Part shown: piece by piece, positions 13,099 to 34,425 of the stretch
Position numbering within the stretch: the first letter of the stretch is position 1
How the letters are laid out: the number at the start of each line of letters is the position of its first letter
Source: Bacteroidota bacterium
GTDB taxonomy: Bacteria > Bacteroidota > Bacteroidia > Bacteroidales > PUMT01
Reading direction: 5' to 3'
Assembly: GCA_003554865.1 (NCBI GenBank)
Contig: PWHJ01000238.1
Location: 1-35,482 of the forward strand
DNA: 35,482 nt
Program-made: the position numbers and the translations under genes
The notes under the pieces: model-generated
Seen by the model: the letters and a program-made list of their open reading frames with translations, nothing else
Told to the model about the DNA's origin: nothing
Databases searched by the model: none

Positions 13099-13109
13099 GA
13101 TCAATTTTT

Positions 13110-13748: not shown

Positions 13749-13750
13749 TT

Positions 13751-14518
13751 TTAAAGGTCTAATTTGTAAAGAGCATCTATAAATTTAATCTGGAATGTTC
13801 CGGGTGCATCGGCTTCTCTTGCCGCTGCCTCACCTGCGGCACCCATTGCCATCATTGCCTTTGTGGCAGCCATGAAGTAGTTTTTGTTGACCGAAGCGAA
13901 AGCGGCGGTCAAAACGCTTGCCGCACACCCCGTTCCTGTTATCCTTCCCATAAGAGGATCTCCCCCTTCAACCGTTTCAATATTTTCTCCGTCGGTTATG
14001 AAGTCCGTTTTACCGCTTATACTAATTACCGATCCTGTTTTTGCTGCAAGCTCTTTTGCAATTTCTACAGCTTCTTCAGCATCCAGTGTGCTTTCCACAC
14101 CTTTAGTGGATACTCTCGATTTTGCAACCGCTAATATCTCTGATGCATTGCCGCGTATTATTTCAGGTTTTATCTCATCCAGTAATTCGTGGGCTGATCT
14201 GGTTCTCATTGAAGTGGCTCCGGCACCGACAGGATCCAGAACAACCGGTTTGCCCTGTTTTTTTGCCGTTTTACCTGCAATATGCATTGATTCGATCCAT
14301 TTGTTGCTCAGTGTGCCGATATTGAGAACCAGCGCCGAGGAGATCGATACCATCTCCTCCATCTCTTCAGGCGCATGTGCCATTACAGGAGAGGCTCCTA
14401 TGGCCAGAAGTGTATTTGCGGTGAAGTTCATTACCACATAATTGGTGATGCTGTGCACAAGGGGCGATTTTTCCCTTATTTTATCAAGATCCTCTGAGAA
14501 TGATTTGTTGTTTGCCAT
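13751..14518 (-). CDS. thiM: Hydroxyethylthiazole kinase
   Basis: 255 residues from ATG 14518; an in-frame GTG at 14536 would add six residues. It phosphorylates salvaged 4-methyl-5-hydroxyethylthiazole. Family motifs: REKSPLVHSITNYVVMNFTANTLLAIGASP, VLDPVGAGAT, RGNASEI, and the GTGCAASVLTAAFASV anion hole with its catalytic Cys. It begins 88 bp after the MttB-family gene on the same strand. An AT-rich weak inverted repeat with T-run in that gap could be partial termination. No TPP riboswitch is visible upstream. Confidence 0.93.
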   Translation of the reverse strand: MANNKSFSEDLDKIREKSPLVHSITNYVVMNFTANTLLAIGASPVMAHAPEEMEEMVSISSALVLNIGTLSNKWIESMHIAGKTAKKQGKPVVLDPVGAGATSMRTRSAHELLDEIKPEIIRGNASEILAVAKSRVSTKGVESTLDAEEAVEIAKELAAKTGSVISISGKTDFITDGENIETVEGGDPLMGRITGTGCAASVLTAAFASVNKNYFMAATKAMMAMGAAGEAAAREADAPGTFQIKFIDALYKLDL

Positions 14519-14606
14519 AACAGTGATTTTTTCCACCCGTGTCTTGCGGAGCCCTATAAAAAATTCTACTTTTAGGATGAATTTTCCGGTTACGGGGAAT
14601 TATTTG

Positions 14607-16058
14607 TCAATTTTTGCCTATAAATTTTTCGGCTTCAGCGAGCGATTTTTCCAGCTCTTTGTCTGCATTTTGCGGGAGTCTTACAGGTTCTGAGGAGGCC
14701 AGAATTTCACTGACTTTCTCATTGGCAACATCAAGTATACTTTTCTTACCCTCCTTTTCCCAAGCTGATATAGATTGCCTTTTGAAATTCTCAGGAATAA
14801 AAAACTCTTTTCTGAAATTTTCGGCAGTATGGTCTTCTTCAAGGTAGTTACCCTGAAACCCTACTTTCCTGATAACGTCAAGTGCGAGGGTTTCGTTATT
14901 GACTGTAACCCCCTTTAATACTTCCTTTACCATATGCGCTATCTCGTCGCATATTACCAGCATCTCCTTTGATCCGTACATGCCACTTGCAAGTGTTCCC
15001 ATTACCTTTGTCAAAGTTATTCCTGAAAGAGCATTCATTAGCATGCCCATCATGGCCTGCGCACCCGCTTCAGCATCGGGCATTTTTGACTCTGCCGCGC
15101 CGCCCAGATTATAGGTTGGCAGCTTGTAGAATTTGCCAAGTTGTGCAACAACGGTACGTGCTGCGGTTTGTTCGGGACTTGCGTAGGTGTATTCCGATAT
15201 TGACATGTCGAATGTTCCCGTTCCCGGTCCATATATCACAGGTGCCCCGCTTTTTACAAGTTGTGCAAGAACAACCCCGAATAAAGCTTCCGCATTGCCC
15301 TGCACAAGTGTGCCTGCTTTTGTTGCCGGACTGGTGGCACCCATCATCGGGGCCAGGGCCACGATCACCGGAATTCCCGCCTGAGCCGCATCGATTGTTC
15401 CGTCACTGTATTTGGCTACCTTCATCGGTGAGACGGTTTCGGTAAAAATACCGATGGACGGCCTTTTGCGTAATTCTTCTTCGCCCCCGCTGGCTATTGC
15501 CGCCATTTCCATGAACTTTTGAACATGGTAACGGCTGGGGGCACTGTACAATAATGGCTTTGATGTGTTACGCAACAGAGCGTCATATTCGTGAAACAGC
15601 TGCTTTCCTTCAGGTTTGTCGCCGGCGGAACAAATGGCTCCCACGAAATCTATGTTGGACAAAGCCTCACCAAGTTTTGTGCACTCTTCCATGTCCTTTT
15701 TCGTGGGGGTACGCTTTTGACCTTCGTTATAATCCCATATAAAAGGCTCGGGAGAGCCTCCCATTCCAAAATAAATCCTCTCCGGCTCAAGAAGAATATC
15801 CATGCCGGGATCCCTTCCGTGGAGGACAAATGAAGATGGTGCTGATTTTATCGACTCCTCCACCATATTTCGGGGTATTTTTATAACCCTGGCAGAAGTG
15901 TCAACATTTGCCCCCCCCTTTTTAAAAACATCCATGATTAGATCCGATTCACTGTAAATGCCCTCTTTCTCAAGCAGCAATAAAGATCCCTGATGTATCT
16001 TTTCCAGTTCCGAATCCGATAACATGTTGAATAATCTGCTTTTGGCACCTTTCTTCAT
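14607..16058 (-). CDS. MttB-family (trimethylamine methyltransferase-like) protein, thiamine-linked copy
   Basis: 483 residues from ATG 16058, preceded by a good ribosome site (AAGGA, 7-nt spacing); the open frame to a TTG at 16100 is therefore not used. MttB-superfamily proteins move a methyl group from a quaternary or tertiary amine to a corrinoid protein. Recognisable: LSDSELEKIHQGSLLLLEKEGIY at the start, GMGGSPEPFIWD, ALAPMMGATSPATKAGTLVQ, ISEYTYASPEQ and LGGAAESKMPDAEAG. No in-frame stop interrupts it, so it is a non-pyrrolysine member. It differs clearly from the tandem pair at 22813-25764. It lies between glnS and thiM on one strand, far from any corrinoid protein gene except the cluster at 22 kb. 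Substrate unknown. Confidence 0.9.
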   Translation of the reverse strand: MKKGAKSRLFNMLSDSELEKIHQGSLLLLEKEGIYSESDLIMDVFKKGGANVDTSARVIKIPRNMVEESIKSAPSSFVLHGRDPGMDILLEPERIYFGMGGSPEPFIWDYNEGQKRTPTKKDMEECTKLGEALSNIDFVGAICSAGDKPEGKQLFHEYDALLRNTSKPLLYSAPSRYHVQKFMEMAAIASGGEEELRKRPSIGIFTETVSPMKVAKYSDGTIDAAQAGIPVIVALAPMMGATSPATKAGTLVQGNAEALFGVVLAQLVKSGAPVIYGPGTGTFDMSISEYTYASPEQTAARTVVAQLGKFYKLPTYNLGGAAESKMPDAEAGAQAMMGMLMNALSGITLTKVMGTLASGMYGSKEMLVICDEIAHMVKEVLKGVTVNNETLALDVIRKVGFQGNYLEEDHTAENFRKEFFIPENFKRQSISAWEKEGKKSILDVANEKVSEILASSEPVRLPQNADKELEKSLAEAEKFIGKN

Positions 16059-16097
16059 AATTATTCCTTCTTTTGGGTAATTTTTAAAGTTGCTGGA

Positions 16098-16105
16098 CAA
16101 AAATA
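16098..16105 (-). promoter_or_regulatory. Candidate -7 box for the MttB-family gene and thi genes
   Basis: On the minus strand it reads TATTTTTG, an exact TAnnTTTG match, about 40 nt before ATG 16058. A T-run just upstream (minus strand of 16119-16128), following a weak GC-rich fold, may end glnS transcripts. This would make the MttB gene the head of a separate unit. Confidence 0.45.
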
Positions 16106-18966: not shown

Positions 18967-21069
18967 ATGCATTTAAAAACATATATTAAAAAAAAGATTT
19001 TGGTTTTGGATGGTGCCACTGACACCATGTTGGAAGAATTAAACTTAAAAGAAGAAAACTCCGAAGAGGGCAGTCTCAGCCAACTTCACTGCGGGCTAAA
19101 AGGGGAAAATGACCTTCTTGCCCTGAGCCATCCCCAAGTAATTGAAACAATTCATTCCCGTTATCTGGATGCCGGCGCTGATATTATCAGGACAAATACG
19201 GTAAATTCCAATTCCCTTTCCAATTGTGTTTCCATGAGGGACTCAGTCTATGAGATCAATAACCGCTCCGCCCTGTTGGCAAAACAAAAAGCCCGTGAAT
19301 ATTCAACCGTTTCCAAACCAAGGTTTGTGGCCGGGGTTGTCGGCCCATCCCGAAAAGTATCAGCTGATTCAAATGGAACCCGGGAGCAGGGAAAAGAACC
19401 CGATTTTGAATCTTTGTGTCATAGTTATGAAATGCAGGTCAGGGGACTTGCAGATGGAGGCGTTGATATGTTCCTTGTCGACAAGATTGACGATCCTTAT
19501 GCTATAAAAGCCGTAATATGCGCAATTGAAAAGTACGTTTCGGCTATTTCAAAAGATATACCGGTAATGATTTCCGTACCCCTCAACAAAAAAGGGGAGC
19601 TTCCTTCAGGTCTGTCTTTCGAAGATTTTCTCAATTTCATATCAGAATATTCCATTTTTAGTATTGGTATTAAATCCCATTTTGGTGAAAAAAATCTGAA
19701 ATCTTTTCTTCAGATGATTTCAGATAAAACCCCGTTTTATGCCGGTTATCACCCTGGTACAGTTAATCCCGGGAGAGCTTTGGTGAACGGGCTGTCTGCC
19801 GGTGCTGTGGCAGATGAAATAGCAGAATATTCCCGCATGGGGCTTTTAAATATATCAGGTGGTTGCTGCGGACTACGCCCTGATCATATAAAGGCTATTT
19901 CAGATACGGTAGAATCATATAAGCCTGCAAAGGTAAAGCCAAATGCGAATATTGCACCGGAAGCAATACCTAAAGGTATAAGCATTGCATGTTCAACTAT
20001 AGGGAAAATAAAAAAACAAGATATGCCGGAGAGCAGAAAAAAAGAGAGTGGTGCCCGCCGGAAGCGAAAGAGAATTCCCACTTTTGCCTTAACCGAGGCG
20101 AGGGTTAAAAGGTACAAGCCCGATTGGGAAAAGGAGAAGCCTGAAAAGCCTGAATTTACCGGTGTAAAGGTGTTTGATAATTATCCCCTTGAGGAGATAA
20201 GAAGATATATCGACTGGACTTCTTTTTTCAATGGCTGGGGAATGAAAGGTAAGTATCCCCAAATTCTCCGCACGGAAGATAAAGGTGAGGAAGCCAGAAG
20301 ATTGTTGGGCGAGGCAAATGAAATGCTTGATCATATAATTGAGAAATCCCTTGTGAAGGCAAAAGGCGTTGTCGGGTTATTCCCGGCCAATTCAAAAGGT
20401 GATGACATAATAGTCTTTGAAGATGAGGAAAGAGAACAAGTTCTCCGGGTATTGCCGATGCTGAGACAGCAAAAGGCAGTAGGCGGTGAGCCATGGTGTT
20501 ACTGCTTAAGCGATTATGTTGCTCCACTCAGGTCAGGCCTCAGCGATTATATAGGAGCTTTTGCAGCAACTGCCGGCCTGGGGGCTGATAAATGCCTGGA
20601 TTATTTTAATGGCAATGGAGAGCAGTATGAAAGTGTTATGTTTCGCTTTATATGTGACAGGCTTACGGAAGCGTTTGCCGAAATACTTCACTTGAAGGTG
20701 AGAAGGGAGCTCTGGGGATACGAAAAGGGCAATATGCCAACAATTGAAGAAATTCAGAACGGCAGATTTGCAGGTATCCGCCCGGCTCCGGGTTATCCCA
20801 CCTGCCCCGACCATACCCTTAAAAAGCCATTGTTTGAGCTGCTGGGGGGAGAAAAGAAAACCGAAATATCACTTACTTCCAGTTATGCTATGGACCCTGC
20901 AAGTTCAGTTGCGGGATTTTATATTGGCTATCCCAAAGCAAAATATTTTGGTGTCGGTAAAATTTTCAGGGACCAGGTCAAGGATTATGCAGAAAGGCTG
21001 GGCCAAAGCATTGAGGAAACAGAAAGATGGCTTAGGGCTAACACAAATTACAAGGCGGGGGTTAAATAA
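18967..21069 (+). CDS. MetH-like protein: homocysteine-binding domain fused to AdoMet reactivation domain
   Basis: 700 residues. Residues about 8-310 match the homocysteine-binding barrel of MetH (LDGATDTMLEEL with D15; DAGADIIRTNTVNS; GGCCG at 298-302). Residues about 380-695 match the MetH activation domain (FTGVKVFDNYPLEEIRRYID, GVVGLFPANSKGDDI, and the AdoMet-binding RPAPGYPTCPDH at 605-616). The methyl-folate and cobalamin domains normally between them are absent. Of the three zinc cysteines, two (C300, C301) remain, but the first (GINC in known enzymes) is Ser237 followed by His238. Either it is the thiol-methylating, self-reactivating part of a dismantled methionine synthase, or its barrel has changed substrate and it mainly reactivates the corrinoid protein at 22073. 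First gene of the cluster. Confidence 0.85.
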   Translation: MHLKTYIKKKILVLDGATDTMLEELNLKEENSEEGSLSQLHCGLKGENDLLALSHPQVIETIHSRYLDAGADIIRTNTVNSNSLSNCVSMRDSVYEINNRSALLAKQKAREYSTVSKPRFVAGVVGPSRKVSADSNGTREQGKEPDFESLCHSYEMQVRGLADGGVDMFLVDKIDDPYAIKAVICAIEKYVSAISKDIPVMISVPLNKKGELPSGLSFEDFLNFISEYSIFSIGIKSHFGEKNLKSFLQMISDKTPFYAGYHPGTVNPGRALVNGLSAGAVADEIAEYSRMGLLNISGGCCGLRPDHIKAISDTVESYKPAKVKPNANIAPEAIPKGISIACSTIGKIKKQDMPESRKKESGARRKRKRIPTFALTEARVKRYKPDWEKEKPEKPEFTGVKVFDNYPLEEIRRYIDWTSFFNGWGMKGKYPQILRTEDKGEEARRLLGEANEMLDHIIEKSLVKAKGVVGLFPANSKGDDIIVFEDEEREQVLRVLPMLRQQKAVGGEPWCYCLSDYVAPLRSGLSDYIGAFAATAGLGADKCLDYFNGNGEQYESVMFRFICDRLTEAFAEILHLKVRRELWGYEKGNMPTIEEIQNGRFAGIRPAPGYPTCPDHTLKKPLFELLGGEKKTEISLTSSYAMDPASSVAGFYIGYPKAKYFGVGKIFRDQVKDYAERLGQSIEETERWLRANTNYKAGVK

Positions 21070-21102: not shown

Positions 21103-22020
21103 ATGAGAATTACAGATATATTTGAAAAAGAAAAACGTACATTTTCCTTCGAGTTTTTTCCCCCGAAAAACACAAAGGCTGCCGTACAATTCGGTATCAA
21201 TGCCGGACAGCTGATGAAGCTCCAACCCTCTTTTGTGACTGAAACATGCGGAGCCGGGGGAACCACAGATGATAAAACTCTCGATATAGTTGACCTTTTT
21301 ACCAATAAGCTGAAATTTACCTGCATGCCACACTATACATGTGTGAACGCAACAAGGGAAAAGGTTGCATATGATATGCGCACCTTTGTTGACAAAAACA
21401 TTGAAAATGTGATGCTGCTCCGGGGAGACCCTCCCGAAGGCGGGCCCTTCCCTGAAAACCCCGATGGGTTGAATTATGCAAGTGATCTGATTAATTTTGT
21501 GAAAAAGCATTATGATCATTTTTGTATAGGGGCTGCTGCTTATCCGGAAAAACATCCCGAAGCCCCCTCAATGAAAAAAGATATCGAGAATTTGAAGAAA
21601 AAGGTAGACGAGGGTGCAGACTTTCTTGTAACACAAATGTTTTTTAAAAACGATTACTATTACAAGTTTATGGATAAAGTCAGAAAGGCAGGGATAAAGT
21701 GCCGTGTGATACCGGGGTTGCTTCCTATAACCGATTTCAGGCAGATAAAAAGGTTTGCCGAAATATCCGGAGCTCATATTCCGGAAATGCTGCAGAAAAA
21801 AATGTCAGATGTTATTGACAAACCAGATGAAGTTTACAATATTGGGCTGGATTATGCGGTGCAGCAAGCGCATGATCTTCTCGACAACGATGCTCCCGGG
21901 TTGCATTTTTTCACCCTGAACAGAAGCCGTTCGGCAGTTGAGATTTATAAGTCACTTGCCGATAATTACAAGGACCTCAGGGAAAGATATCAAGAAAGCT
22001 TTACACCCCATGTGCCATAA
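21103..22020 (+). CDS. metF: 5,10-methylenetetrahydrofolate reductase
   Basis: 305 residues (E. coli MetF is 296). A flavoprotein interconverting methylene- and methyl-tetrahydrofolate. The N-terminal TFSFEFFPPK carries the catalytic Glu (E17); VMLLRGDPPEGG and CRVIPGLLPIT are typical. It can work either way: reduction to supply methyl groups for methionine, or oxidation of methyl-THF from demethylation. It lies 33 bp after the MetH-like gene. A tiny 8-codon frame (21080-21106) overlaps its start as ATGA. Confidence 0.95.
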   Translation: MRITDIFEKEKRTFSFEFFPPKNTKAAVQFGINAGQLMKLQPSFVTETCGAGGTTDDKTLDIVDLFTNKLKFTCMPHYTCVNATREKVAYDMRTFVDKNIENVMLLRGDPPEGGPFPENPDGLNYASDLINFVKKHYDHFCIGAAAYPEKHPEAPSMKKDIENLKKKVDEGADFLVTQMFFKNDYYYKFMDKVRKAGIKCRVIPGLLPITDFRQIKRFAEISGAHIPEMLQKKMSDVIDKPDEVYNIGLDYAVQQAHDLLDNDAPGLHFFTLNRSRSAVEIYKSLADNYKDLRERYQESFTPHVP

Positions 22021-22072: not shown

Positions 22073-22717
22073 ATGAGTAGTGATTTGGGAAAAATTTCAG
22101 ATGCATTAACAAAAGGTAATGTAGATGAACTTAAAGAAGTAGTGCAGCAGGCACTTGACAACGATGCAGTTCCTGCAGACCTTTTAAATAAAGGGTTGTT
22201 GCCCGGAATGGAGGCAGTAGGGCAGAAATGGAAAAACGGTGAAATGTTTATGCCTGAAGTGCTCAGATGCGCCAAGGCTATGAGCGGTGCCATGGATATA
22301 CTCAGACCCCGCCTGGCTAAAGAGGATCTGGGCAGTGCCGGTAAAATGGTTATCGGAACGGTATCGGGGGATCTTCACGACATTGGAAAGGACCTGGCTG
22401 CAATGATGTTTGAAGGTGCCGGCTATGAGGTTGTAAATATTGGAATAGACCAGCCAAACGAGAAATTTGTTGAAGCTGCTAAAGAACACAAGCCGACCCT
22501 TTTGGGTATGTCAGCTCTTTTGACAACAACCATGCCCCGCATGGGCGAAGTTATCAATTCATTGAAAGAGGCCGGCATACGTGACCAGATGGCAGTGATA
22601 ATTGGTGGTGCACCGGTAACTCAGGAATTTGCCGAGGAGATCGGGGCCGATATATATGCACCAAATGCCGGTTCTGCAGTTGATCTGGCCAGGGAATATT
22701 TTGAAAGTAAAGCCTGA
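22073..22717 (+). CDS. Corrinoid-binding methyl carrier protein (MtbC/MttC/MtgC-like)
   Basis: 214 residues. The N-terminal four-helix cap (about 1-85, KWKNGEMFMPEVLRCAKAM) is followed by a cobalamin-binding Rossmann domain. The signature DLHDIG (100-105) places the lower cobalt ligand at His102; MSALLTTTM and GGAPVT complete the binding site. Such proteins carry the methyl group on cobalt between a substrate-specific methyltransferase (here MttB-like) and a second methyltransferase. It fills the domain missing from the MetH-like protein. It precedes the mttB pair, separated by a hairpin (22749-22787). Confidence 0.95.
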   Translation: MSSDLGKISDALTKGNVDELKEVVQQALDNDAVPADLLNKGLLPGMEAVGQKWKNGEMFMPEVLRCAKAMSGAMDILRPRLAKEDLGSAGKMVIGTVSGDLHDIGKDLAAMMFEGAGYEVVNIGIDQPNEKFVEAAKEHKPTLLGMSALLTTTMPRMGEVINSLKEAGIRDQMAVIIGGAPVTQEFAEEIGADIYAPNAGSAVDLAREYFESKA

Positions 22718-22812: not shown

Positions 22813-24261
22813 ATGAAGATAAATCAGACCATAAACAAGAGTCCGCAATTCAGGGTTCTTTCTGAAGACCAGATAGAGCAAATCTATTTCTCCGCCCTTG
22901 AAGTTATGGAAAGGACAGGAGGGGTGGTATATCATGAAGGGGCTTTGGAGCTATTCAAAAACAGTGATGCCCTCGTTGAAGGAAACAGGGTGAGAATCCC
23001 CATCACAATGGTTGAGGAAGCTCTGAAATCCTACCCCAGGAAGATAACCCTGAAGGGAAGAAATGGTAAGCGCTCTCTTTTTCTTGAAAAAGATATGGTG
23101 TCTTTTGGCACCGGATCAGATCTCCCCTTTACACTGGACATGAACACCGGTGAGAGAAGGAACACCACTTACAAGGATGTGAGTGATGCATCCAAGCTTG
23201 TGGACGCCTTGTCAAATTTCGATTTTCACATGTCTCACGGGATTGTTACTGACGCTCCCAATCCCCAGACTTACGACCGCCATCAGTTTATGGCTATGCT
23301 TGAGAATTGTACAAAGCCAATGGTTGTGACAAGTGTTGACGGGGAAGGCCTAGAAGATCTCTGGAAAATGGGATGTCTTATTCAGGGCGGGGAGCATGAA
23401 TTCAGGCTCAATCCCATGTTTGTTGTATATATTGAACCTATCTCCCCGCTTAAAAATGATTCAACGGCTGTTGAAAAGCTTCTGTTTGCAGCTGAAAAGA
23501 GAATCCCGGCAATGTACACCCCATGTCCGAGTTCGGGAGCGACGGCCCCTGCCACCATTGCAGGCATGCTTGTACAGTCGCTGGCCGAGACTTTGCTGGC
23601 CATAGTTATGTGTCATTTGAAGAATCCCGGAATGCCGCTTATAATGGGTGGTGTAACAACCCTGCTGGATATGAGGAAGTCAACCTACTCATACGGAGCT
23701 CCGGAGCTGTCACTCGCATCTGCTGCAAACACAGATATTTCAAAATGGCTCAATCTGATCATGTTCAGCACCGGGGGATGCACCGATGCAAAAATACTTG
23801 ATGAGCAGGCAGCCTCAGAACAGATGATGAATCTTTTCTACTCGTACCTCTCCGGAGCAAACCTGATACATGATGTGGGATATATTGACCATGGAACGAC
23901 AGCCTCACTTGAGAGCCTGGTGCTTAACCAGGAGATGATAGGTATGGTAAAGCAGTTTGGAAAGGGGATCAATACCGATGATGAGCATCTGGCTTTGGAT
24001 CTTATAGAAAAGCAGGGCCCCGGGGGTGAATATGTTACAACCGATCATACTTTCAAATACTGGAAAGAATGGTTCATGCCCCAGTTGCAGGACCGGAGCG
24101 ATTATGAAACATGGGTCAAGAACGGATCCAAAACTATGGGGCAAAGATTAAAAGAGCGTACCCAGCATCTTCTGGATACATATCAGCCTGAGCCGCTGGA
24201 TGAAAAGCTTCGCAAAGAGCTGAAAAAAATATGTGAAGATGCAGATAAGCGTCACATGTAA
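22813..24261 (+). CDS. MttB-family corrinoid methyltransferase, first of tandem pair
   Basis: 482 residues, full length without an amber codon, so it is a non-pyrrolysine MttB-superfamily member like the glycine betaine methyltransferase MtgB. Expected reaction: quaternary amine plus Co(I) corrinoid protein gives tertiary amine plus methyl-Co(III). Seen: FRVLSEDQIEQIYFSALEVM at the N-terminus, PCPSSGATAPATIAGMLVQS, YSYGAPELSL (Y292-) and GGCTDAK (C323-T324-D325). That last motif lies near the position of pyrrolysine in the archaeal enzymes (about residue 330). It follows its corrinoid protein and is 24 bp before its paralogue. The substrate cannot be fixed by sequence. Confidence 0.93.
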   Translation: MKINQTINKSPQFRVLSEDQIEQIYFSALEVMERTGGVVYHEGALELFKNSDALVEGNRVRIPITMVEEALKSYPRKITLKGRNGKRSLFLEKDMVSFGTGSDLPFTLDMNTGERRNTTYKDVSDASKLVDALSNFDFHMSHGIVTDAPNPQTYDRHQFMAMLENCTKPMVVTSVDGEGLEDLWKMGCLIQGGEHEFRLNPMFVVYIEPISPLKNDSTAVEKLLFAAEKRIPAMYTPCPSSGATAPATIAGMLVQSLAETLLAIVMCHLKNPGMPLIMGGVTTLLDMRKSTYSYGAPELSLASAANTDISKWLNLIMFSTGGCTDAKILDEQAASEQMMNLFYSYLSGANLIHDVGYIDHGTTASLESLVLNQEMIGMVKQFGKGINTDDEHLALDLIEKQGPGGEYVTTDHTFKYWKEWFMPQLQDRSDYETWVKNGSKTMGQRLKERTQHLLDTYQPEPLDEKLRKELKKICEDADKRHM

Positions 24262-24285
24262 ATAATCCAATAAAACATATTACCT

Positions 24286-25764
24286 ATGAGTGTAAGAACT
24301 AACTATACAGTATATGAAAGCCCGCGATTGCAGATACTTTCCGAAGACCAGAAGGAGAAGATCTTAAATGGAATGATGCGTACCCTTCAGTACACAGGTG
24401 CGCATGTTCATCACGAAAAGGCAAGGGAGCTGTTCAAAAAGGCGGGATGCAAGGTTGACGGTGTTACGGTATATTTTCCTCCTGAAGTAATACTTAAAGC
24501 TCTTTCCACAGTGCCGCCGGTGACGGAAGTATTTCCCTGGGACGGGAATAAGGAGAAGAAGGTGGTTGTGGAGAAGAACCGCAGCTACTTTGGTCCGGGG
24601 CCGACTCCTCCCAATTTTATTGATACCGATACAATGGAGAGAAGGAAATACCTGCGCAAAGATGCCAATATCGTAGCACGGGTATGTGATGCGCTCCCTA
24701 ATATTGGTTTCGTGCAGTCTTTGGGCTCGATCAGCGATGTAACCAACGACCTTGCAGATGTTTATGAATTTGCCGATATGGTGCGCAATACCACCACTCC
24801 AATAATGAGCTGGTCTTTTACAAGGGAGGGGTGCAGGGATATTCACCGTATAGCCATTGCTATGGCAGGCGGGGAAGAAGAGTTCCGCCAGCGCCCCAAT
24901 TACATTTTTTACGGGGAGCCTATTTCTCCCCTTGTGAGTGACTTTCATGCAATTGACAAATGTATGTACTGTGCCGAGAATCGTATTCCCCAGGTCTACA
25001 GTCCATGTGCCATAGGAGGAGGAACGGTGCCTGCCACACATGCCGGTCAGCTTGTGGTTGCCCTCTCGGAATCTATGGTAGGGGTCATTGCGGCACAGCT
25101 GATCAATCCCGGGACATGCGTTATTATTGGTGGTGTACAGTCGATCCTGGATATGCGCTATTCAATATATTCCTACGGCGCGCCGGAATTGAGCCTTTTA
25201 AGCTCGGCTTTAACTGAGGTTGTCCAGTATTGCGGACTACCCATGTATTCACAGTCGGGTTGCACCGATACCAAGAAAATGGATATGCAGTCGGCATTGG
25301 AGGCAAGTCTTTCAATCAATGCTGCAATGATGAGCGGTGCTAATTTTGTCCATGATAACGGCTATACCGAAAGCGGTCTTACCGGCGATGTTTTCCAGAC
25401 GGTGATGGATGATGAACTGATATCCATGGCAAGGGTGATTGAAAGAAGCTTTGATGTTAACAAGGAAACCCTCAGTGTGGATGTTATTGACAGTGTAGGT
25501 CCCGGCGGCCATTACCTTTATGAAGACCATACCATGAAATGGTTCCGAACATACTGGATGCCAACGCTGATGGACCGTAACTCCTACGAGGGATGGGTGG
25601 AAGAAGGACGTAAGACGATGAAAGACCGCATAATTGAAAAGACAAGAGATCTAATTGACAATTATGAAGGTCCCCGCGGAAAAGTACCGGCTCAGGCCGA
25701 CAAGGAGATTGAAAGGATTCTTCAGGAAGCCGAAAAAAGAGCAAAAGAGTCAGAAAGCAAGTAA
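24286..25764 (+). CDS. MttB-family corrinoid methyltransferase, second of tandem pair
   Basis: 492 residues, uninterrupted, non-pyrrolysine. It shares with the preceding gene LQILSEDQKEKI, YSYGAPELSL (Y295-), SGCTDTKKMD (C326-T327-D328) and GPGGHYLYEDHT. It differs widely elsewhere, so the pair is an old duplication and may have distinct substrates or form a heteromeric enzyme. The C-terminus is a charged helical tail (IERILQEAEKRAKESESK). Its distance of 24 bp from the first copy indicates cotranscription. A strong stem-loop follows it. Substrate unknown. Confidence 0.93.
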   Translation: MSVRTNYTVYESPRLQILSEDQKEKILNGMMRTLQYTGAHVHHEKARELFKKAGCKVDGVTVYFPPEVILKALSTVPPVTEVFPWDGNKEKKVVVEKNRSYFGPGPTPPNFIDTDTMERRKYLRKDANIVARVCDALPNIGFVQSLGSISDVTNDLADVYEFADMVRNTTTPIMSWSFTREGCRDIHRIAIAMAGGEEEFRQRPNYIFYGEPISPLVSDFHAIDKCMYCAENRIPQVYSPCAIGGGTVPATHAGQLVVALSESMVGVIAAQLINPGTCVIIGGVQSILDMRYSIYSYGAPELSLLSSALTEVVQYCGLPMYSQSGCTDTKKMDMQSALEASLSINAAMMSGANFVHDNGYTESGLTGDVFQTVMDDELISMARVIERSFDVNKETLSVDVIDSVGPGGHYLYEDHTMKWFRTYWMPTLMDRNSYEGWVEEGRKTMKDRIIEKTRDLIDNYEGPRGKVPAQADKEIERILQEAEKRAKESESK

Positions 25765-25880: not shown

Positions 25881-27866
25881 ATGAATCGATATGTCATTGG
25901 CATTGATACCGGTGGAACATTTACCGATGGTGTGCTGCTTGACTACTCAACAAGAAAGGTTGTATCTGCTGCAAAAACACTTACCACACGCAGCGATCTG
26001 AAAAAAGGGGTTATCAGGGTTTTGAAAAAACTTGATATTCAAGGTGATTACAACATAAAACTAGTGGGTATCTCAAGCACTCTGGCCACCAATTCGGTTG
26101 CAGAAGGAAAAACCAGGAAGATAGCACTTCTTCTTATAGGATACGACAGCCAACTTATAAAGAATTACGGATTGAGTGATGATCTGGCCTCCCGTGAAAT
26201 AGTCTATTTTAAGGGTGGGCATACGGCCCAGGGTTCGGAGTTGGCGCCCCTTGACAGGAAGGCTGTTGAGAAATGGGTAGTTGAAAATAAGAGCGATTTT
26301 GATGCAATTGCAGTCTCATCATATTTTAGTCCGCTCAATCCTTCCCATGAAAAGGAGGCTTTCGAAATAATCGGCTCCCTCTCGGATCTTCCCGTTGTTA
26401 TGGGCCACCAGTTATCCGGGAAGCTGAATTCGATCAAAAGGGCTGCAACGGCGGCAATAAACGCTTCTCTTGTAGCTGTTATGAAGGATTTTATAAGTTC
26501 CGTGCAGCTCTCACTTGAGGAGCTGGGGATAAAAGCCCCCCTGATGATCGTAAGAGGTGACGGAAGCCTGATGCCATGCCGTGAGGCTGTATCTAAGCCC
26601 GTGGAGACAGTTCTTTCAGGCCCGGCAGCAAGTGCTATCGGGGCACACTTTTTGCTTGGCAAAAACAGCTCGCTTGTGATTGATATGGGCGGTACAACAA
26701 CAGATATGGCGCTTGTGGACAACGGAAAAGTGAAGGTTACGTCAGAAGGTGCAAGGGTTGGAAATGTTTCAACGGCCGTGGAAGCTGCCAATATACGCAC
26801 CGTCAGCCTGGGGTGTGACAGCAGGATATGGTTTGACAAAAAAAGCAGGATATGTGTTGGTCCCGAGCGGGTACGTTCCCTCTCTCAGCTTTCGCAACAC
26901 TACAAAAGTGTCGCTGACGATTTTAAAAAGATCAAAGGCAACCCTTCCAAAATAAAAAATGTTCACGATCTCGAGTACTGGCATCTTTACAGGGAACCGG
27001 ACAATAATGTAATGGAAGCGCTCTCAAAGGACCAGCAAAGGGTGCTTGCAAGACTGAGGGAGCCTTGCAGGCTGAGTGAAATTATGGATGATGAAGGTGT
27101 TTTTCACCCATCACATCTTAATCTCAATGACTTGGTTCAACAGGGGTACATTGAGTGCTCAATGCTGAACCCCTCTGATCTTTTGCATGTTTCAGGCCGC
27201 CTTGATTTGTGGGATTGGGAGGTAGCTGAAATTGCAGCCGAATGTATGTCCGGCTTATACAATATGGAGAAAAAGGATTTTATCGAAGAGGTATTTACCA
27301 GGATAGAAAATACCATTATTGAAGAGATATTTATTTATCTTGCTTCTCACAATACAAGGGAAGCAATGCCGGGGAAAGTGGACGGCAAATGGGGTAAATG
27401 GTTGCTGGGGGAGCTTTTGGATCCTCAAAGTGATTATCTCAATGTTGAGATCAACAGTCTTTTGCCTGTTGCCGGTACAGGTGCGCCTGCCCGCCATTTT
27501 CTGAAAAATGTTTGCCGCAGGCTGAACGCAAGGATGCTGACCCCCGAATATGCCCACGTTGCAAATGCCGTTGGTGCGGTTTCCGGATTTGTAACCGAGG
27601 CAAGGGAAGCAATAGTCTTTATCAGGGAGGAAAACGATAAATTTACCTATATTGTCAAGTGTAACGGAGAGTTCAGTAATTTTGAAACCCACGAGGAGGC
27701 TTGTGAATATGCAAAGCAGATAGCTCAAAGGGTGGCAAAGGAGGCGGCCATATCAGCGGGTTCCTCGGAGCCTTATATTGAGTTGACAAAGAAAGTGGAA
27801 GGCTCTCTGACAAGATTTTTAGCCCGTGCAACCGGCAATCCGAAATTGTCTGAATTAAAACTTTGA
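25881..27866 (+). CDS. Hydantoinase/oxoprolinase A-like ATPase-fold protein
   Basis: 661 residues. Hydantoinase_A N-domain with GIDTGGTFTDGVLLD (residues about 7-21), then the main domain with the second phosphate motif VIDMGGTTTDMALV and PVAGTGAPARHF near residue 535. These are actin/ASKHA-type nucleotide-binding motifs. A middle segment (about 375-425, ending PSDLLHVSGRLDLWD) looks like a small winged-helix-type insert. No HyuB partner is next to it, so it is probably not a hydantoinase. The corrinoid reactivators RACo and RamA also bind nucleotide through ASKHA or related folds, and this gene sits among corrinoid enzymes. A role in corrinoid protein reactivation is therefore plausible but inferred. 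Confidence 0.85.
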   Translation: MNRYVIGIDTGGTFTDGVLLDYSTRKVVSAAKTLTTRSDLKKGVIRVLKKLDIQGDYNIKLVGISSTLATNSVAEGKTRKIALLLIGYDSQLIKNYGLSDDLASREIVYFKGGHTAQGSELAPLDRKAVEKWVVENKSDFDAIAVSSYFSPLNPSHEKEAFEIIGSLSDLPVVMGHQLSGKLNSIKRAATAAINASLVAVMKDFISSVQLSLEELGIKAPLMIVRGDGSLMPCREAVSKPVETVLSGPAASAIGAHFLLGKNSSLVIDMGGTTTDMALVDNGKVKVTSEGARVGNVSTAVEAANIRTVSLGCDSRIWFDKKSRICVGPERVRSLSQLSQHYKSVADDFKKIKGNPSKIKNVHDLEYWHLYREPDNNVMEALSKDQQRVLARLREPCRLSEIMDDEGVFHPSHLNLNDLVQQGYIECSMLNPSDLLHVSGRLDLWDWEVAEIAAECMSGLYNMEKKDFIEEVFTRIENTIIEEIFIYLASHNTREAMPGKVDGKWGKWLLGELLDPQSDYLNVEINSLLPVAGTGAPARHFLKNVCRRLNARMLTPEYAHVANAVGAVSGFVTEAREAIVFIREENDKFTYIVKCNGEFSNFETHEEACEYAKQIAQRVAKEAAISAGSSEPYIELTKKVEGSLTRFLARATGNPKLSELKL

Positions 27867-27872
27867 GTTGGT

Positions 27873-28562
27873 TTGATTGAAAAACCCAAAAATAAAGTTG
27901 TTATTTCATGCGGAAGCCTTAAGGCTGAGTTGGAAAAGCTCGAGCCGAAAGCACACGGCATCCGGGTATGTTACATGCCACATAACCTGCACAGGTTACC
28001 TGACAAAATGAGGGAAATGCTGCAGGAGAAAATTAATGAGTTTGATACTCGCGATAATCAGATTGTACTGGGTTACGGACTTTGCTCAAATGGGGTTGCC
28101 GGACTGAAAGCTCCGGTAAACGGCTTTTATGTTCCAAGGGTTCACGATTGTATAGCACTTTATCTTGGAAGTCTGGAGCGATACCACCGCTTTTTCAGAG
28201 AAAGACCCGGGACTTATTATCTTACAAAAAACTGGATAGAAAATCAAAAAGACCCCCTGGGCCTGCTGGAAAACGAATATACAAGGAGGGTCGGCGTTGA
28301 GATGGCAAGGGAAACAATAGAGAGGGAGCTGAAAAATTACAGCTATATATGTTATATAAACACAGGTGATAAAAATGAGAATAAGCTCAGAGAGAGGGCA
28401 ATTGAAAATGCAAAAGCTCTGGGAAAAGAATTCATAGAGGTTGAAGGTGATAATCTTTATTTCAGGAAGATATTGTTCGGCCCGTATGAGAAAAAAGATT
28501 TCGTTTATATAGAACCTAACCAGATAAGCAATTACAAAAACTTTTTTAAAAAGGAGAATTAA
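27873..28562 (+). CDS. DUF1638 protein
   Basis: 229 residues from a TTG start. It matches the uncharacterised DUF1638 family: ISCGSLKAEL, GYGLCSNGVAGLK, VPRVHDCIALYLGSLERYH. The conserved Cys and His-Asp-Cys suggest metal or cofactor binding, but no activity is known to me. It starts 6 bp after the hyuA-like stop, in the same frame with only one TGA between them. No ATG or GTG is available before the conserved region, so the start is uncertain. The next gene follows after 2 bp. DUF1638 genes are often seen with MttB-type methyltransferases (from memory), which fits here. Confidence 0.85.
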   Translation: MIEKPKNKVVISCGSLKAELEKLEPKAHGIRVCYMPHNLHRLPDKMREMLQEKINEFDTRDNQIVLGYGLCSNGVAGLKAPVNGFYVPRVHDCIALYLGSLERYHRFFRERPGTYYLTKNWIENQKDPLGLLENEYTRRVGVEMARETIERELKNYSYICYINTGDKNENKLRERAIENAKALGKEFIEVEGDNLYFRKILFGPYEKKDFVYIEPNQISNYKNFFKKEN

Positions 28563-29442: not shown

Positions 29443-30288
29443 ATGTGTGACGAAAACAAAAAATATTCAAAAGACGCCGAAACGGCAAGAGAATACTATA
29501 ACAGCAAAGACGCCTATAATTTCTATTATCACGTTTGGGGCGGTGAAGATGAGCATCTGGGCATTTATATAAGTCCCGATGACGATATATTTACTGCCAG
29601 CCGCAGAACCATCAGGGAAATGTCGGCTCTTGCCGATATTGACGAGAATACAAGGATAATAGACCTTGGCGGTGGTTTTGCCGGTAGTGCCCGCTACCTT
29701 GCCAAAAAATTCGGATGTCATGTAACTGTTCTCAATATCAGTGAAGCGGAAAATGAAAGGGGAAGGAAAATGAACAAGGATCAGGGCCTTGATCATCTTA
29801 TAGATATAGTAGACGGTAATTTTGAAAATATCCCCTTTGACAATGAATCCTTTGATATTGTTTGGTCTCAGGATGCCATACTTCACAGCAGTTACAGGGG
29901 GAAGGTCATTGAAGAGGCTGTTCGTGTACTTAAGCCGGGGGGTGATTTAATTTTTACAGATCCCATGCAGACGGGTAATTGTGACGAGAAAGAGCTGGAA
30001 CCGGTATACAGGAGATTGAATCTTTCATCTCTGGGGTCACCCGAATTTTATGAGAAAGCTTGCAGGGAACAGGGACTGCAAAAGTTAAGGTTTATAGATT
30101 TGCAGTATCACCTGGTGAAACATTATTCCACAGTTCTGGAACTGACCAGGGAAAAGGAGGAATCACTCAAAAAAGATGTATCCGGGGAATATCTCTCAAA
30201 TATGAAAACCGGACTTGGCCACTGGATAGATGGGGGCAAGAAAGGTAATCTTACATGGGGGATTTTTCATTTTAATAAGCCGAAATAA
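29443..30288 (+). CDS. Sarcosine/dimethylglycine N-methyltransferase-like SAM enzyme
   Basis: 281 residues, class I SAM-dependent methyltransferase. The N-terminal part (ETAREYYNSKDAYNFYYHVW, ASRRTIREM) and the core (IIDLGGGFAGSARYLAKKFG, VLNISEAENERGR, VWSQDAILHS, LKPGGDLIFTDPMQTG) strongly resemble the sarcosine/dimethylglycine N-methyltransferase that makes glycine betaine from sarcosine. It lies 80 bp after the MtgA-like gene and completes the cluster. If the assignment is right, this operon both makes and takes apart methylated glycines. Related small-molecule methyltransferases (phosphoethanolamine, dimethylglycine, tocopherol type) are alternatives. Confidence 0.85.
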   Translation: MCDENKKYSKDAETAREYYNSKDAYNFYYHVWGGEDEHLGIYISPDDDIFTASRRTIREMSALADIDENTRIIDLGGGFAGSARYLAKKFGCHVTVLNISEAENERGRKMNKDQGLDHLIDIVDGNFENIPFDNESFDIVWSQDAILHSSYRGKVIEEAVRVLKPGGDLIFTDPMQTGNCDEKELEPVYRRLNLSSLGSPEFYEKACREQGLQKLRFIDLQYHLVKHYSTVLELTREKEESLKKDVSGEYLSNMKTGLGHWIDGGKKGNLTWGIFHFNKPK

Positions 30289-30429: not shown

Positions 30430-32856
30430 ATGGATGGTAATAATCCGGATAACGCTGGCAGAAGCCATGTTCCGCCCATTTCGGCGATTGATCGGAGGTG
30501 CTTTTTGAGACTGAGTGCTTTTTTCAGCGGGGGGTTGCTGGCTTCCGGCTCTTTACTGGGTTGCTTGCAGGGCGAAGAAGGTAAAGGTCAGATTGTCAGC
30601 GTAAATGATGATGGCAGCGTAATTATAAGGGCCGGATGTCCCTCCCACAATTGTGGCGGACGCTGTGTGCTGAAGCTGCATGTGAGGGACGGGGAAATTG
30701 TTCGCATTGAGACAGACGACCGTCCAACCGATGATATTTCTGATCCACAATTGCGTGCCTGTATAAGGGGACGTTCATACCGCCGCCGGCAGTATCACCC
30801 GGATCGTCTTAAATATCCGATGAAGCGGGTTGGAGAAAGAGGTGAAGGCAAGTTTGAACGTATTTCATGGGATGAGGCGCTGGAAATACTGGCTTCCCGG
30901 CTTAAAAGGGTAAAGGAAAAATACGGAAATTCAGCCATTCTTGTCCCTTACGGCACCGGAAGCTATAACCAGACAAACGGGAGGCAGACTGCAGCCCGGT
31001 TGATGAACCTTTTCGGTGGCTCGCTTGGTTTTTACAACAGCTATAGCTGGGCATGCATAAGCCGCGCCACCCCTTATGTTTACGGAACAAGTGTGACAGG
31101 TAACCAGCGTCAGGATTGGATAAACTCCCGGTATATTATTATGTGGGGCTGGAACCCTGCTGAGATGCGTGACGGTACCAACAGCGAGTTTTTTATAAAA
31201 AAAGCCCGTGAAAATGGAGCGAGGGTGATTTGTATTGATCCGCGAATGAGTATGAGTGCCGTATCGCTGGCCGATGAGTGGATACCCATCAGACCGGGTA
31301 CAGATACTGCACTGATGAGTGCCATGGCTTATGTTATAATATCTGAGGATCTCCACGATAAGGATTTTATAAATCGATGCTGCATCGGTTTTGATAAGTC
31401 GCAAATGCCCGATGGACTTGAGGAGGAGGAAAGCTACATTGATTATATTTTCGGAACCAAAGACGGGGTGCCCAAAACTCCCGGGTGGGCCGAGGAAATA
31501 ACCGGTATACCAGCCCGCACCATAATAAGGATAGGGCGCGAATATGGCTCAATCAAACCTGCAATGCTTTACCAGGGCTATGGAATGCAAAGGAGGGCAT
31601 ACGGTGAGCAGCCTGTGCTCGGAGGATGTGTTTTAGCTGCCATAACCGGTAATGTTGGAATATCCGGCGGATGGGCAAGTGGTATAGCTTTGCAGGTGGC
31701 TGATGGGGGGCCTTTATGGAATGTTTTTCCAACAGGGAGAAATCCCGTAAGGGAAATGATCCCTGTTTTTTTGTGGACCGAGGCTGTTTTGAGGGGGAAG
31801 GAAATGGGTCCTGAAGATGGAGTTGTAGGGGGCGACAGACTGCAAAACAATATTAAGCTTATTTGGTGTGTTGCCTCAAATATACTTATTAACCAGCATT
31901 CTGATGTAAACAGGTCGGCCGAAATACTTAAGGATGAAAACCTGGTTGAATTTATAGCTTTCCAGGATCAGTTCATGACACCTTCGGGCCGTTTTGCCGA
32001 TCTGGTGCTGCCCGTGTGCACTCAGTTTGAGGTTTGGGGATTGCAGGACGGGTGGAAATATGGTGATGAAGTTATAATAAATCCGAAAATATACGATCCA
32101 CCTAACGAGGCCAAAAGTGATTACAGAATATGTGCCGAGCTATCTGAGAAGCTTGGTCTGAAGGATGAGTTCACCCAGGGCAGGGATGAAAGGGAATGGA
32201 TAGAATGGGCAGTTAACCATTTCCGCAATACAAGATTTCCCGAAATACCTTCCCTTGATCAGCTGCATGAAAAAAACAGGGGTGTTTATTCTGTGCCTGT
32301 TGAGAAACCCAAGGTGGCATTGTCCGATTTTCGTGATGATCCTGAAAATAACCCTCTTAATACTCCAACGGGTAAAATAGAGATCTTTTCAAGGCAGCTG
32401 TATGATATGGACAAGCCCGATGTTATACCTCCCGTTCCCAAATATATTCAGGAATGGGAGAGCCCGTTCGGGGAAGAGAGTAAACGCTTTCCTCTTCAGG
32501 CTGTCGGGCATCATTACATGCCGCGCGTACACTCTATCCATGACCAGATAGACTGGCTTGAGGAGGCTTTCCCCCAAAGGGTTTTTATAAATCCTTTGGA
32601 TGCTTCAGATAGAGGTATAAAAAACGGGGATCAGGTGCGTGTTTACAATGAAAGGGGCGAGATGGTTATCCCCTGCAGGGTAACCGCCAAGATTATGCCG
32701 GGTGTGGTGAACATACCCCAAGGTGCGTGGTGGACTCCCGATGAGGAAGGAGTCGACAGGCGCGGTTGTGTCAATGTGCTGACCAGCCATAAATGGACAC
32801 CCCTTGCCTTCGGGAATGCCCAGCATACAATTATGTGCCAGGTTGAGAAAGCTTAA
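30430..32856 (+). CDS. dmsA: DMSO reductase-type molybdopterin catalytic subunit
   Basis: 808 residues, close to E. coli DmsA. It reduces S- or N-oxides (DMSO, TMAO) outside the cytoplasmic membrane with bis-MGD molybdenum. The N-terminus has a twin-arginine signal (DRRCFLRL, R22-R23), then SLLGC (C45), which resembles a lipobox, so a Tat-exported lipoprotein is possible. The iron-sulfur cluster site is C70, C75, C79 and C111. DmsA-type stretches RACIRGRSYRRRQYHPDRLK and GEGKFERISWDEAL are near identical to the family. By alignment with DmsA, the molybdenum ligand is Ser206 in NSYSWACI. Leads dmsABC after the methyl-transfer cluster; the true oxidant is not known. Confidence 0.9.
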   Translation: MDGNNPDNAGRSHVPPISAIDRRCFLRLSAFFSGGLLASGSLLGCLQGEEGKGQIVSVNDDGSVIIRAGCPSHNCGGRCVLKLHVRDGEIVRIETDDRPTDDISDPQLRACIRGRSYRRRQYHPDRLKYPMKRVGERGEGKFERISWDEALEILASRLKRVKEKYGNSAILVPYGTGSYNQTNGRQTAARLMNLFGGSLGFYNSYSWACISRATPYVYGTSVTGNQRQDWINSRYIIMWGWNPAEMRDGTNSEFFIKKARENGARVICIDPRMSMSAVSLADEWIPIRPGTDTALMSAMAYVIISEDLHDKDFINRCCIGFDKSQMPDGLEEEESYIDYIFGTKDGVPKTPGWAEEITGIPARTIIRIGREYGSIKPAMLYQGYGMQRRAYGEQPVLGGCVLAAITGNVGISGGWASGIALQVADGGPLWNVFPTGRNPVREMIPVFLWTEAVLRGKEMGPEDGVVGGDRLQNNIKLIWCVASNILINQHSDVNRSAEILKDENLVEFIAFQDQFMTPSGRFADLVLPVCTQFEVWGLQDGWKYGDEVIINPKIYDPPNEAKSDYRICAELSEKLGLKDEFTQGRDEREWIEWAVNHFRNTRFPEIPSLDQLHEKNRGVYSVPVEKPKVALSDFRDDPENNPLNTPTGKIEIFSRQLYDMDKPDVIPPVPKYIQEWESPFGEESKRFPLQAVGHHYMPRVHSIHDQIDWLEEAFPQRVFINPLDASDRGIKNGDQVRVYNERGEMVIPCRVTAKIMPGVVNIPQGAWWTPDEEGVDRRGCVNVLTSHKWTPLAFGNAQHTIMCQVEKA

Positions 32857-32885
32857 GGTAACATTTGAGAAATAAACTTACAGAA

Positions 32886-33518
32886 ATGGGCAAAAAACAG
32901 CTTGCTTTTTATTTTGACTCGTCTTCATGCTCGGGCTGCAAAACCTGTCAGGTTGCCTGCAAGGATAAGCATGATAGCGGGGAAGGCATACTGTGGCGAA
33001 GGGTTTACGAGGCTGCCGGCGGTGATTGGGTAAAGGACGGTAATGCCTGGGTACCCAATGTTTACTCCTATTATATTTCTATGGCATGTAATCATTGTGT
33101 AGAGCCACTTTGTCTTTATTCATGTCCGAATAATGCTATAGTAAAGAATGATGACGGTATTGTCCTTATCGAGAAGGATAGGTGTATGGGATGCCGCTAC
33201 TGTGAATGGAATTGTCCCTACGGCGCTCTTCAGTTTGACAAGTCACAGGGGGTAATGACCAAGTGCACGTTTTGCGATGATTACCTGGCAGAGGGCAAAA
33301 AACCCTCCTGTATAACGGCCTGTCCAATGCGGGTACTTGATATTGGTGAGCTTGAGGAGCTGGAGAAGGAACATGGCAAAAGCAACGAGATCTTCCCTAT
33401 GCCCAGGGCTCATTATACTCAGCCTGCAATTGTCGTAAAGCCGCACCGGGATGCAAGAATGGCAGAAAATGTTGAAATGAAAATTGATAATCTGGAGGAG
33501 ATTAAAAATGAACAGTAA
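32886..33518 (+). CDS. dmsB: DMSO reductase-type iron-sulfur subunit
   Basis: 210 residues from ATG 32886; an in-frame TTG at 32865 is less likely. An electron-transfer subunit with four [4Fe-4S] sites. The cysteine groups are CSGCKTCQVAC, CNHCVEPLCLYSCP, CMGCRYCEWNCP and CTFCDDYLAEGKKPSCITACP. It passes electrons from the membrane subunit to the catalytic subunit. It starts 29 bp after dmsA and overlaps dmsC by 11 bp. Confidence 0.95.
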   Translation: MGKKQLAFYFDSSSCSGCKTCQVACKDKHDSGEGILWRRVYEAAGGDWVKDGNAWVPNVYSYYISMACNHCVEPLCLYSCPNNAIVKNDDGIVLIEKDRCMGCRYCEWNCPYGALQFDKSQGVMTKCTFCDDYLAEGKKPSCITACPMRVLDIGELEELEKEHGKSNEIFPMPRAHYTQPAIVVKPHRDARMAENVEMKIDNLEEIKNEQ

Positions 33519-34377
33519 CGAATGGCCGCTGGTCTTTTTTACGCTGCTGTCGCAAATGACCGCCGGCATAATTATAATATCCTTTATTGTCGGGTTGTTT
33601 GTGAGAAATTCCGAGCTGTTATCCGACTTTGAACTGAAAAGGAACTATTTCTTTGTCTCTCTTGTTTTAATGGTTATAGCTCTGGCTATTTCCTTTTTTC
33701 ACCTCTCGGCTCCACTTCAGTCTGTTTTTGCCTTAGCTAACCTACAGACTTCATGGCTTAGCAGGGAGATCTTTTGTATGTCAATGTTCACCTTCCTGAT
33801 TGCAGTTTGCTGTGCTGCTGTAAAGTTTGGAATACCGGGTATTTCGGGCCTGCCCTATTGGCACATTGCTGCTGCATTTACCGGGCTTTTGCTTGTATGG
33901 ATAATGGCTCGCCTTTATATGATTCCTATAGTGCCTGCCTGGAATAATTATGCTACAATGATCGGGTTCTTTACCAGCATTTTTCTGCTGGGAGGAGTTG
34001 CACTTCTTGTTATTTTGGTCGTTACCGGCGGAAAAAGTTTTCCTTTTGATCAGCTTAAGCCGGTTATGTGGGCCCTGATAGTAGTTGTTTCACTTGCCGT
34101 GGTTGCAAAGCTTCTTAATGTATTTTTGTTCCAGTCCGGTATCTCATTCACGGGGGGAAGTTTGCCACCGCCTGAAGCTCCTTTTTCCTGGCATGTTATT
34201 CATGTAATTTTCTTTGTTGCCGGGTTTTTTCTTTTAGCGTACTGGGCTTACTCCCAGATGCAGCATACTGAGCTTTATCGTCCGCAAATGGTTTATCTCT
34301 CTTTTGCATTGCTTTTTGTTTCGGAAATATTCGGAAGGGCTATTTTTTATGCCCTTTATTATCGCCTGGGAATGTGA
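33508..34377 (+). CDS. dmsC: DMSO reductase-type membrane anchor subunit
   Basis: 289 residues from ATG 33508, which has a strong ribosome site (GGAGGAG). The open frame extends to 33484 but that part is not needed. Eight hydrophobic segments can be counted (the first being FFTLLSQMTAGIIIISFIVG), the layout of DmsC (287 residues in E. coli). It oxidises menaquinol and anchors DmsAB. The start lies inside the end of dmsB, so translation is coupled. Confidence 0.92.
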   Translation: MNSNEWPLVFFTLLSQMTAGIIIISFIVGLFVRNSELLSDFELKRNYFFVSLVLMVIALAISFFHLSAPLQSVFALANLQTSWLSREIFCMSMFTFLIAVCCAAVKFGIPGISGLPYWHIAAAFTGLLLVWIMARLYMIPIVPAWNNYATMIGFFTSIFLLGGVALLVILVVTGGKSFPFDQLKPVMWALIVVVSLAVVAKLLNVFLFQSGISFTGGSLPPPEAPFSWHVIHVIFFVAGFFLLAYWAYSQMQHTELYRPQMVYLSFALLFVSEIFGRAIFYALYYRLGM

Positions 34378-34425
34378 GGGTTGCCTCAGCCGCAATTATA
34401 GAGTCAGGGTGAAAAATATTTTTAT

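Follow-up and report, generated by a model that had tools for sequence, protein, structure and literature searches.

The described gene cluster closest in architecture to the one analysed here is that of Ca. Formimonas warabiya, which is induced on glycine betaine (GB) and reads MtgC-MttB-MtgC-MttB-HydA-MtgA. It encodes two corrinoid proteins and two OpuD transporters, and next to the two MttBs that were proposed to serve two substrates there is a third; Sporomusa ovata and Ca. Frackibacter have syntenic clusters (PMC9768040). In Ruegeria pomeroyi the MtgBCDE system brings together an MtgB-type enzyme, MtgC, MtgD, MetF, an MtgE-like domain and DUF1638, and MtgC-MtgD-MetF couples betaine demethylation to methionine synthesis (PMC12478193). 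For MtgB of Desulfitobacterium hafniense (2QNE, 9YCE), docking gave Y94, N199, R309 and H345 as the GB residues, N199 being a contact of the docked betaine (PMC6855144). The pyrrolysine (Pyl) enzyme of Methanosarcina barkeri, Pyl-MttB (7XCL), has M249, Pyl334 and Y364 at pocket positions (PMC9842639). In the opposite direction, halophiles synthesize betaine with GSMT and SDMT, encoded together with SAH hydrolase and SAM synthesis genes (PMC3176816, PMC9062515); in Methanohalophilus gsmt-sdmt and sahh lie in one cluster (PMC3176816).

We analysed a window of 35,482 nucleotides from a Bacteroidota genome of 3.2 Mb and 96% completeness (G000). An operon-like run on one strand, with gaps of 2-141 bp, extends from 18967 through the SDMT gene to the Dms genes:

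18967..21069, + strand: Hcy-methyltransferase domain fused to a MetH activation domain (PF02574 + PF02965)
21103..22020, + strand: MetF, methylene-THF reductase (TIGR00676, 313 bits, above cut-off)
22073..22717, + strand: MtgC-like corrinoid protein, directly upstream of MttB1 (NF047996, TIGR02370)
22813..24261, + strand: MttB1, non-Pyl methyltransferase of the MttB superfamily (482 aa; PF06253, 329.5 bits)
24286..25764, + strand: MttB2, sister paralogue of MttB1 (492 aa; PF06253, 278.7 bits)
25881..27866, + strand: HyuA/hydantoinase-A-like ASKHA protein (PF05378 + PF01968)
27873..28562, + strand: DUF1638 protein, predicted corrinoid re-activation partner (PF07796; PMC12478193)
28565..29362, + strand: MtgA/MtgD-like methyl-THF:corrinoid methyltransferase (NF005719, 344.7 bits, above the cut-off of 259)
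29443..30288, + strand: SDMT-like sarcosine/dimethylglycine N-methyltransferase (NF041675, 359.6 bits, below the cut-off of 550)
30430-35181, downstream of SDMT: DmsAB-type S/N-oxide reductase genes, probably with DmsC

Dms genes downstream of SDMT are confined to the window genus; in relatives AhcY and MetK take that place.

By gene content this cluster has the paired MttBs, MtgC, HyuA/HydA and MtgA (265 aa) of a Formimonas-type GB demethylation cluster, but unlike that cluster it has a single MtgC, an SDMT, a MetF and the Hcy/activation protein, and no transporter was seen in it. With Ruegeria it shares the whole set listed above, yet here the genes form one compact operon with paired MttBs and SDMT, the MtgE-like domain is fused to the MetH activation domain, and the source is a metagenome-assembled genome (MAG) with soda-lake relatives. 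With the halophile pathway it has in common the grouping of SDMT with SAH hydrolase and SAM synthesis genes, whereas GSMT is missing and corrinoid methyltransferases stand in its place. The reading that we prefer, at a probability of roughly 0.4, is that MttB1 and MttB2 are a dedicated N-methylglycine:corrinoid methyltransferase pair sharing MtgC in the glycine-betaine synthesis of anaerobic halophiles.

The two MttB frames lie on a common strand, 24 bp apart, with no internal stop; just as a sequence-only reading of this DNA had described them, they are in tandem and full length, and both carry the motifs YSYGAPELSL and GCTDxK. The PF06253 match spans both proteins end to end, which places them in the MttB superfamily (PF06253/COG5598) with its TIM-barrel fold. 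That they are non-pyrrolysine enzymes, also claimed there, was borne out: their scores against the Pyl-MttB equivalog TIGR02369 are 401.7 (MttB1) and 351.1 (MttB2), both under the cut-off of 525, and at Pyl position 334 both have a TGC codon for Cys (at 23779 and 25261); in each, the motif GCTDxK supplies the Cys that stands in for pyrrolysine. An Rfam PYLIS_3 match at 23779-23878, whose start coincides with the codon for Cys323 in MttB1, was rejected as evidence of Pyl decoding and attributed to coding-sequence similarity; it is a trap for automatic Pyl annotation. A recent tandem duplication was likewise rejected, as the pair is 39% identical (484 aligned columns) compared with 81-91% for orthologues in the genus and family. 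The genome has three PF06253 genes, all inside the window, and a genome-wide PF02607 search found MtgC as its one free-standing corrinoid protein, so the earlier claim of a single corrinoid gene for two enzymes holds for the whole genome; its three B12-binding_2 matches are MtgC, a MetH and a MerR-like regulator.

The third PF06253 gene lies upstream of the run:

14607-16100, - strand: third MttB (MttB3), with Ala at the Pyl position

Its product shows 34 and 31% identity to the two paired enzymes, and the gene is located 70 bp upstream of thiM-thiE-thiD (12283-14536, - strand); the order glnS-MttB3-thiM-thiE-thiD is retained in both congeners (L014/L015, L017). We know of no function for an MttB within a thiamine-salvage cluster. 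At the head of the run, the protein encoded at 18967-21069 amounts to a MetH minus its folate and B12 domains and is the sole PF02965 match in the genome; in G009 and others the same slot holds a full-length MetH. Another contig of the window genome encodes a MetH of 894 aa that lacks the activation domain (L024 2594-5278). The two partial MetH proteins complement each other, and no MetE was found in the genome. In the window copy of the Hcy domain GIKSHFG replaces the GINCF/GLNCC of its congeners, and one predicted zinc Cys is therefore lost in this copy only; judging by this replacement the domain may be dead and the protein an activator only.

A scan of named genomes with both orthologue sets gave 62 related loci in at least six phyla, with hosts in Bacteroidales, Balneolales, Hydrogenedentota, Desulfobacterales, Desulfonatronospira, Opitutales, Phycisphaeraceae and Lentisphaerae, and more distant ones in Chloroflexota, Armatimonadota and others. 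Going by their isolate names, we take most of these hosts to come from soda or hypersaline lakes (Kulunda, El Tobar, Great Salt Lake). Cock Soda Lake, Bitter-1 and Tanatar are Kulunda soda lakes (PMC6146748). The main group keeps the order MtgC-MttB1-MttB2 wherever the contig permits; the distant L071-L073 have MttB2-MtgC-(...)-MttB1, and the exceptions are L075, where only MttB1 was seen, and L076, with two MttB1-like copies.

MttB1 and MttB2 are sister clades, distant members being found in both, and the clade of both excludes MtgB 2QNE (SH-aLRT 99), with 4YYC and Pyl-MttB 7XCL also outside; this tree was quickly built, its outgroups (2QNE, 4YYC and 7XCL) have long branches, and in it neither protein groups with MtgB. 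The result named by the sequence-only reading as speaking against it, a single clade of known identical specificity, did not appear in this tree: both proteins fall outside MtgB and Pyl-MttB. The distances within MttB1 and within MttB2 mirror each other closely, with a Mantel r of 0.936 over 42 paired entries (at least one genome being entered twice) and 0 of 2000 permutations as high. Mirrored trees and shared order together imply an old pair whose members have moved together, which supports the view, already taken from the two sequences, that the split is ancient: it came before the pair spread to its many phyla.

Aligned with 7XCL and MtgB, the two enzymes have in common a set of pocket residues, every one of which is conserved in at least 94 of 95 sequences:

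MttB1: E208, C238, C323, H353, D354, Y357
MttB2: E211, C241, C326, H356, D357, Y360

E208/E211 fall in the column of MtgB N199, C238/C241 in that of MttB M249, C323/C326 in that of Pyl334 and H353/H356 in that of MttB Y364; relative to Pyl-MttB, then, Pyl334 and Met249 have become Cys and Tyr364 has become His. Identity to MtgB is about 30%, and three of its four docked GB residues (Y94, N199 and R309) are replaced in both enzymes, the His (His345) alone being kept. The Cys pair is absent from MtgB, 4YYC and Pyl-MttB. The fold is common to all: the AF2 model of MttB1 (pLDDT 82) matches MttB 7xcl with Z 50.7 and MtgB 9yce with Z 50.6, that of MttB2 (pLDDT 79) matches 7xcn with Z 45.8, and in both models the pocket residues lie at or beside the C-terminal ends of barrel strands. 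Glu/Cys/Cys is the zinc ligand type of the methanol methyltransferase MtaB, and Glu/Cys/Cys/His at the strand ends is suggestive of a bound zinc in the manner of MtaB; MtaB is not among the fold matches listed for MttB1, which is not evidence of absence. Because divergent members without SDMT carry the identical E-C-C-H set, these residues do not prove synthesis.

At other conserved positions the paralogues differ, with FGTGSD in MttB1 (the FGTG loop of Pyl-MttB) versus FGPGPT in MttB2, S240 versus I243 and Y120 versus R124, differences that would fit different substrates. The constant pairing fits two substrates and a mixed complex alike, the two options that the sequence-only reading had offered. 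In the latter case MttB1 and MttB2 would act on MtgC as an obligate heteromer, with one of the chains possibly structural or regulatory, as the fixed gene order and the mirrored divergence might suggest; in the MttB-MttC hetero-dodecamer each MttC touches an MttB dimer pair (PMC9842639). Against this, every conserved pocket residue is kept in both paralogues, so that neither resembles a dead partner, and there are loci with MttB1 only (L075) or with two MttB1-like copies (L076). We consider such a complex improbable; as it concerns assembly, it could go together with synthesis, catabolism or methyl supply. Overall, the interpretation given with the first reading is partly supported.

Among 19 loci with good flanks the neighbours of the pair include SDMT (16), MtgD (16), HyuA (16), DUF1638 (15), MetK (12), AhcY (9) and MetF (8); SerA (phosphoglycerate dehydrogenase) follows MtgD in the Desulfobacterales L047 and L053, GSMT adjoins the cassette in L041, L064 and L085, and RACo/AcsV-type activators are found in several cassettes. 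SDMT, MetK, AhcY and MetF/MetH, sometimes with SerA or GSMT, are parts of betaine synthesis from glycine, and their grouping parallels gsmt-sdmt-sahh of Methanohalophilus (PMC3176816). In Desulfobacterales cassettes small ORFs lie between HyuA and RACo (L047 13782-14788), one of which (14261-14788) has ACT domains and is possibly an amino-acid sensor. The window SDMT has 2o57 as its best PDB match and keeps WSQDAxLH and DPM, the residues assigned to sarcosine/dimethylglycine binding (PMC3176816); the equivalog cut-off of 550 that it misses is also missed by the SDMTs of the control genomes described below.

In the window's family SDMT (359-374 bits) occurs in exactly 5 of 16 genomes, the same five that have the pair (one-sided Fisher 2.3e-4, phylogeny not corrected for), and the other 11 have generic methyltransferases only, or none. 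GSMT scores above cut-off in 0 of these 16 genomes, and in the window genome it has no match at E<=1e-3. Fifty further genomes with the pair include 34 with SDMT and 11 with GSMT, all of the latter SDMT-positive and some with the GSMT gene linked to the cassette; 'TAA inside' flags on two of the 11 were not confirmed as breaks. GSMT is thus missing in 28 of 39 SDMT-bearing pair genomes, and replacement of GSMT by the pair in all genomes is rejected, given the 11 that have both. As a control, all three SDMT genomes of a Bacteroidota sample outside the pair set and the window's family have GSMT adjacent; these are three genomes only, and nearly all genomes compared are MAGs and incomplete. A further order-level search for SDMT without the pair yielded no new SDMT genomes.

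The main rival to synthesis is a stepwise catabolism in which one MttB takes betaine to dimethylglycine and the other dimethylglycine to sarcosine, MtgD yields methyl-THF that is oxidized via MetF or used for methionine, and SDMT, MetK and AhcY are separate osmolyte genes alongside. The match to the GB-induced clusters and the coupling to methionine synthesis in Ruegeria argue for it, and full-length sarcosine reductase GrdB is present in the divergent relatives G057 and G061. Yet GrdB is missing from almost every pair genome, that of the window included (it is full-length in 1 of 30 canonical-cassette genomes), no betaine transporter (BCCT/OpuD) was identified by profile search among the flanking genes examined, the MtgB pocket is not retained, and an SDMT in the same operon would make for a futile cycle that burns SAM. 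On balance we regard stepwise demethylation as rather unlikely. Alternatively, the pair may demethylate an imported compound (choline phosphate, TMA, DMSP or other), the methyl passing to methyl-THF, methionine and SAM for SDMT. MetF, the Hcy/activation protein, MetK and AhcY do adjoin the pair, and the substrates of the superfamily are diverse (PMC8604678, PMC12155760), but the missing step from glycine to sarcosine would stay unexplained and neither a transporter nor a substrate kinase was identified in the cassette; we consider a methyl supply of this kind improbable as well.

The synthesis model starts from that same step, which is left unfilled because GSMT is missing. By a rough estimate, methylating a primary or secondary amine with methyl-THF should be near neutral, and forming a quaternary amine in this way should be uphill. 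The unfilled step, the co-occurrence of the pair, MtgC and MtgD with SDMT, and the near-neutral energetics together lead us to prefer synthesis, and we infer a direction, substrates and a metal as follows. MetF would produce methyl-THF, which MtgD would use to methylate Co(I)-MtgC; from MtgC, MttB1 and MttB2 would transfer the methyl to glycine and sarcosine, giving sarcosine and then dimethylglycine and standing in for GSMT. The final methylation, the thermodynamically hard one, would fall to SDMT, using SAM that is regenerated by MetK and AhcY. The retention of SDMT would then be explained, since making the quaternary amine from methyl-THF should be uphill. In the pocket, a metal, probably Zn, would be bound by the Glu-Cys-Cys-His set and serve as the Lewis acid where Pyl-MttB uses pyrrolysine, which is what non-quaternary amine substrates would call for. 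The broadest form of the proposal, a corrinoid-dependent route in which enzymes of the MttB superfamily use a metal instead of pyrrolysine, work in the reverse direction to methylate glycine and sarcosine from methyl-THF, and take over from the SAM-dependent GSMT in many phyla of hypersaline anaerobes, is more tentative than the assignment of the pair to betaine synthesis.

For synthesis we count the co-occurrence with SDMT, the missing GSMT, the neighbours, the substrate residues kept in the window SDMT, the habitat, the lack of a transporter among the flanking genes examined, the scarcity of GrdB, the changed MtgB residues and the conserved E-C-C-H set. Against it we count that, to our knowledge, the characterized enzymes of the superfamily all demethylate, that the nearest described architecture is induced on GB (PMC9768040), that 11 pair genomes also have GSMT, and that the SDMT score lies under the NCBIfam cut-off; moreover, if the pair was ancestrally used on betaine and dimethylglycine, the glycine to sarcosine step is left unexplained. 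Because distant relatives with sarcosine reductase may demethylate stepwise, there is better support for N-methylglycines as the substrate class than for the direction. No report of corrinoid-dependent betaine synthesis was found in the open literature searched.

If the model is true, a family known only for demethylating amines is here used to add methyls, and this would be the first anabolic use of the MttB superfamily known to us. For energy-limited anaerobes it would provide a cheaper molar osmolyte, with two of three methyls added without SAM. Even if the pathway is catabolic, the fixed pair would be a clean system for asking whether betaine and dimethylglycine have separate enzymes, a question left open for the Formimonas cluster (PMC9768040). 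The Cys that invariably occupies the pyrrolysine position offers a testable alternative chemistry.
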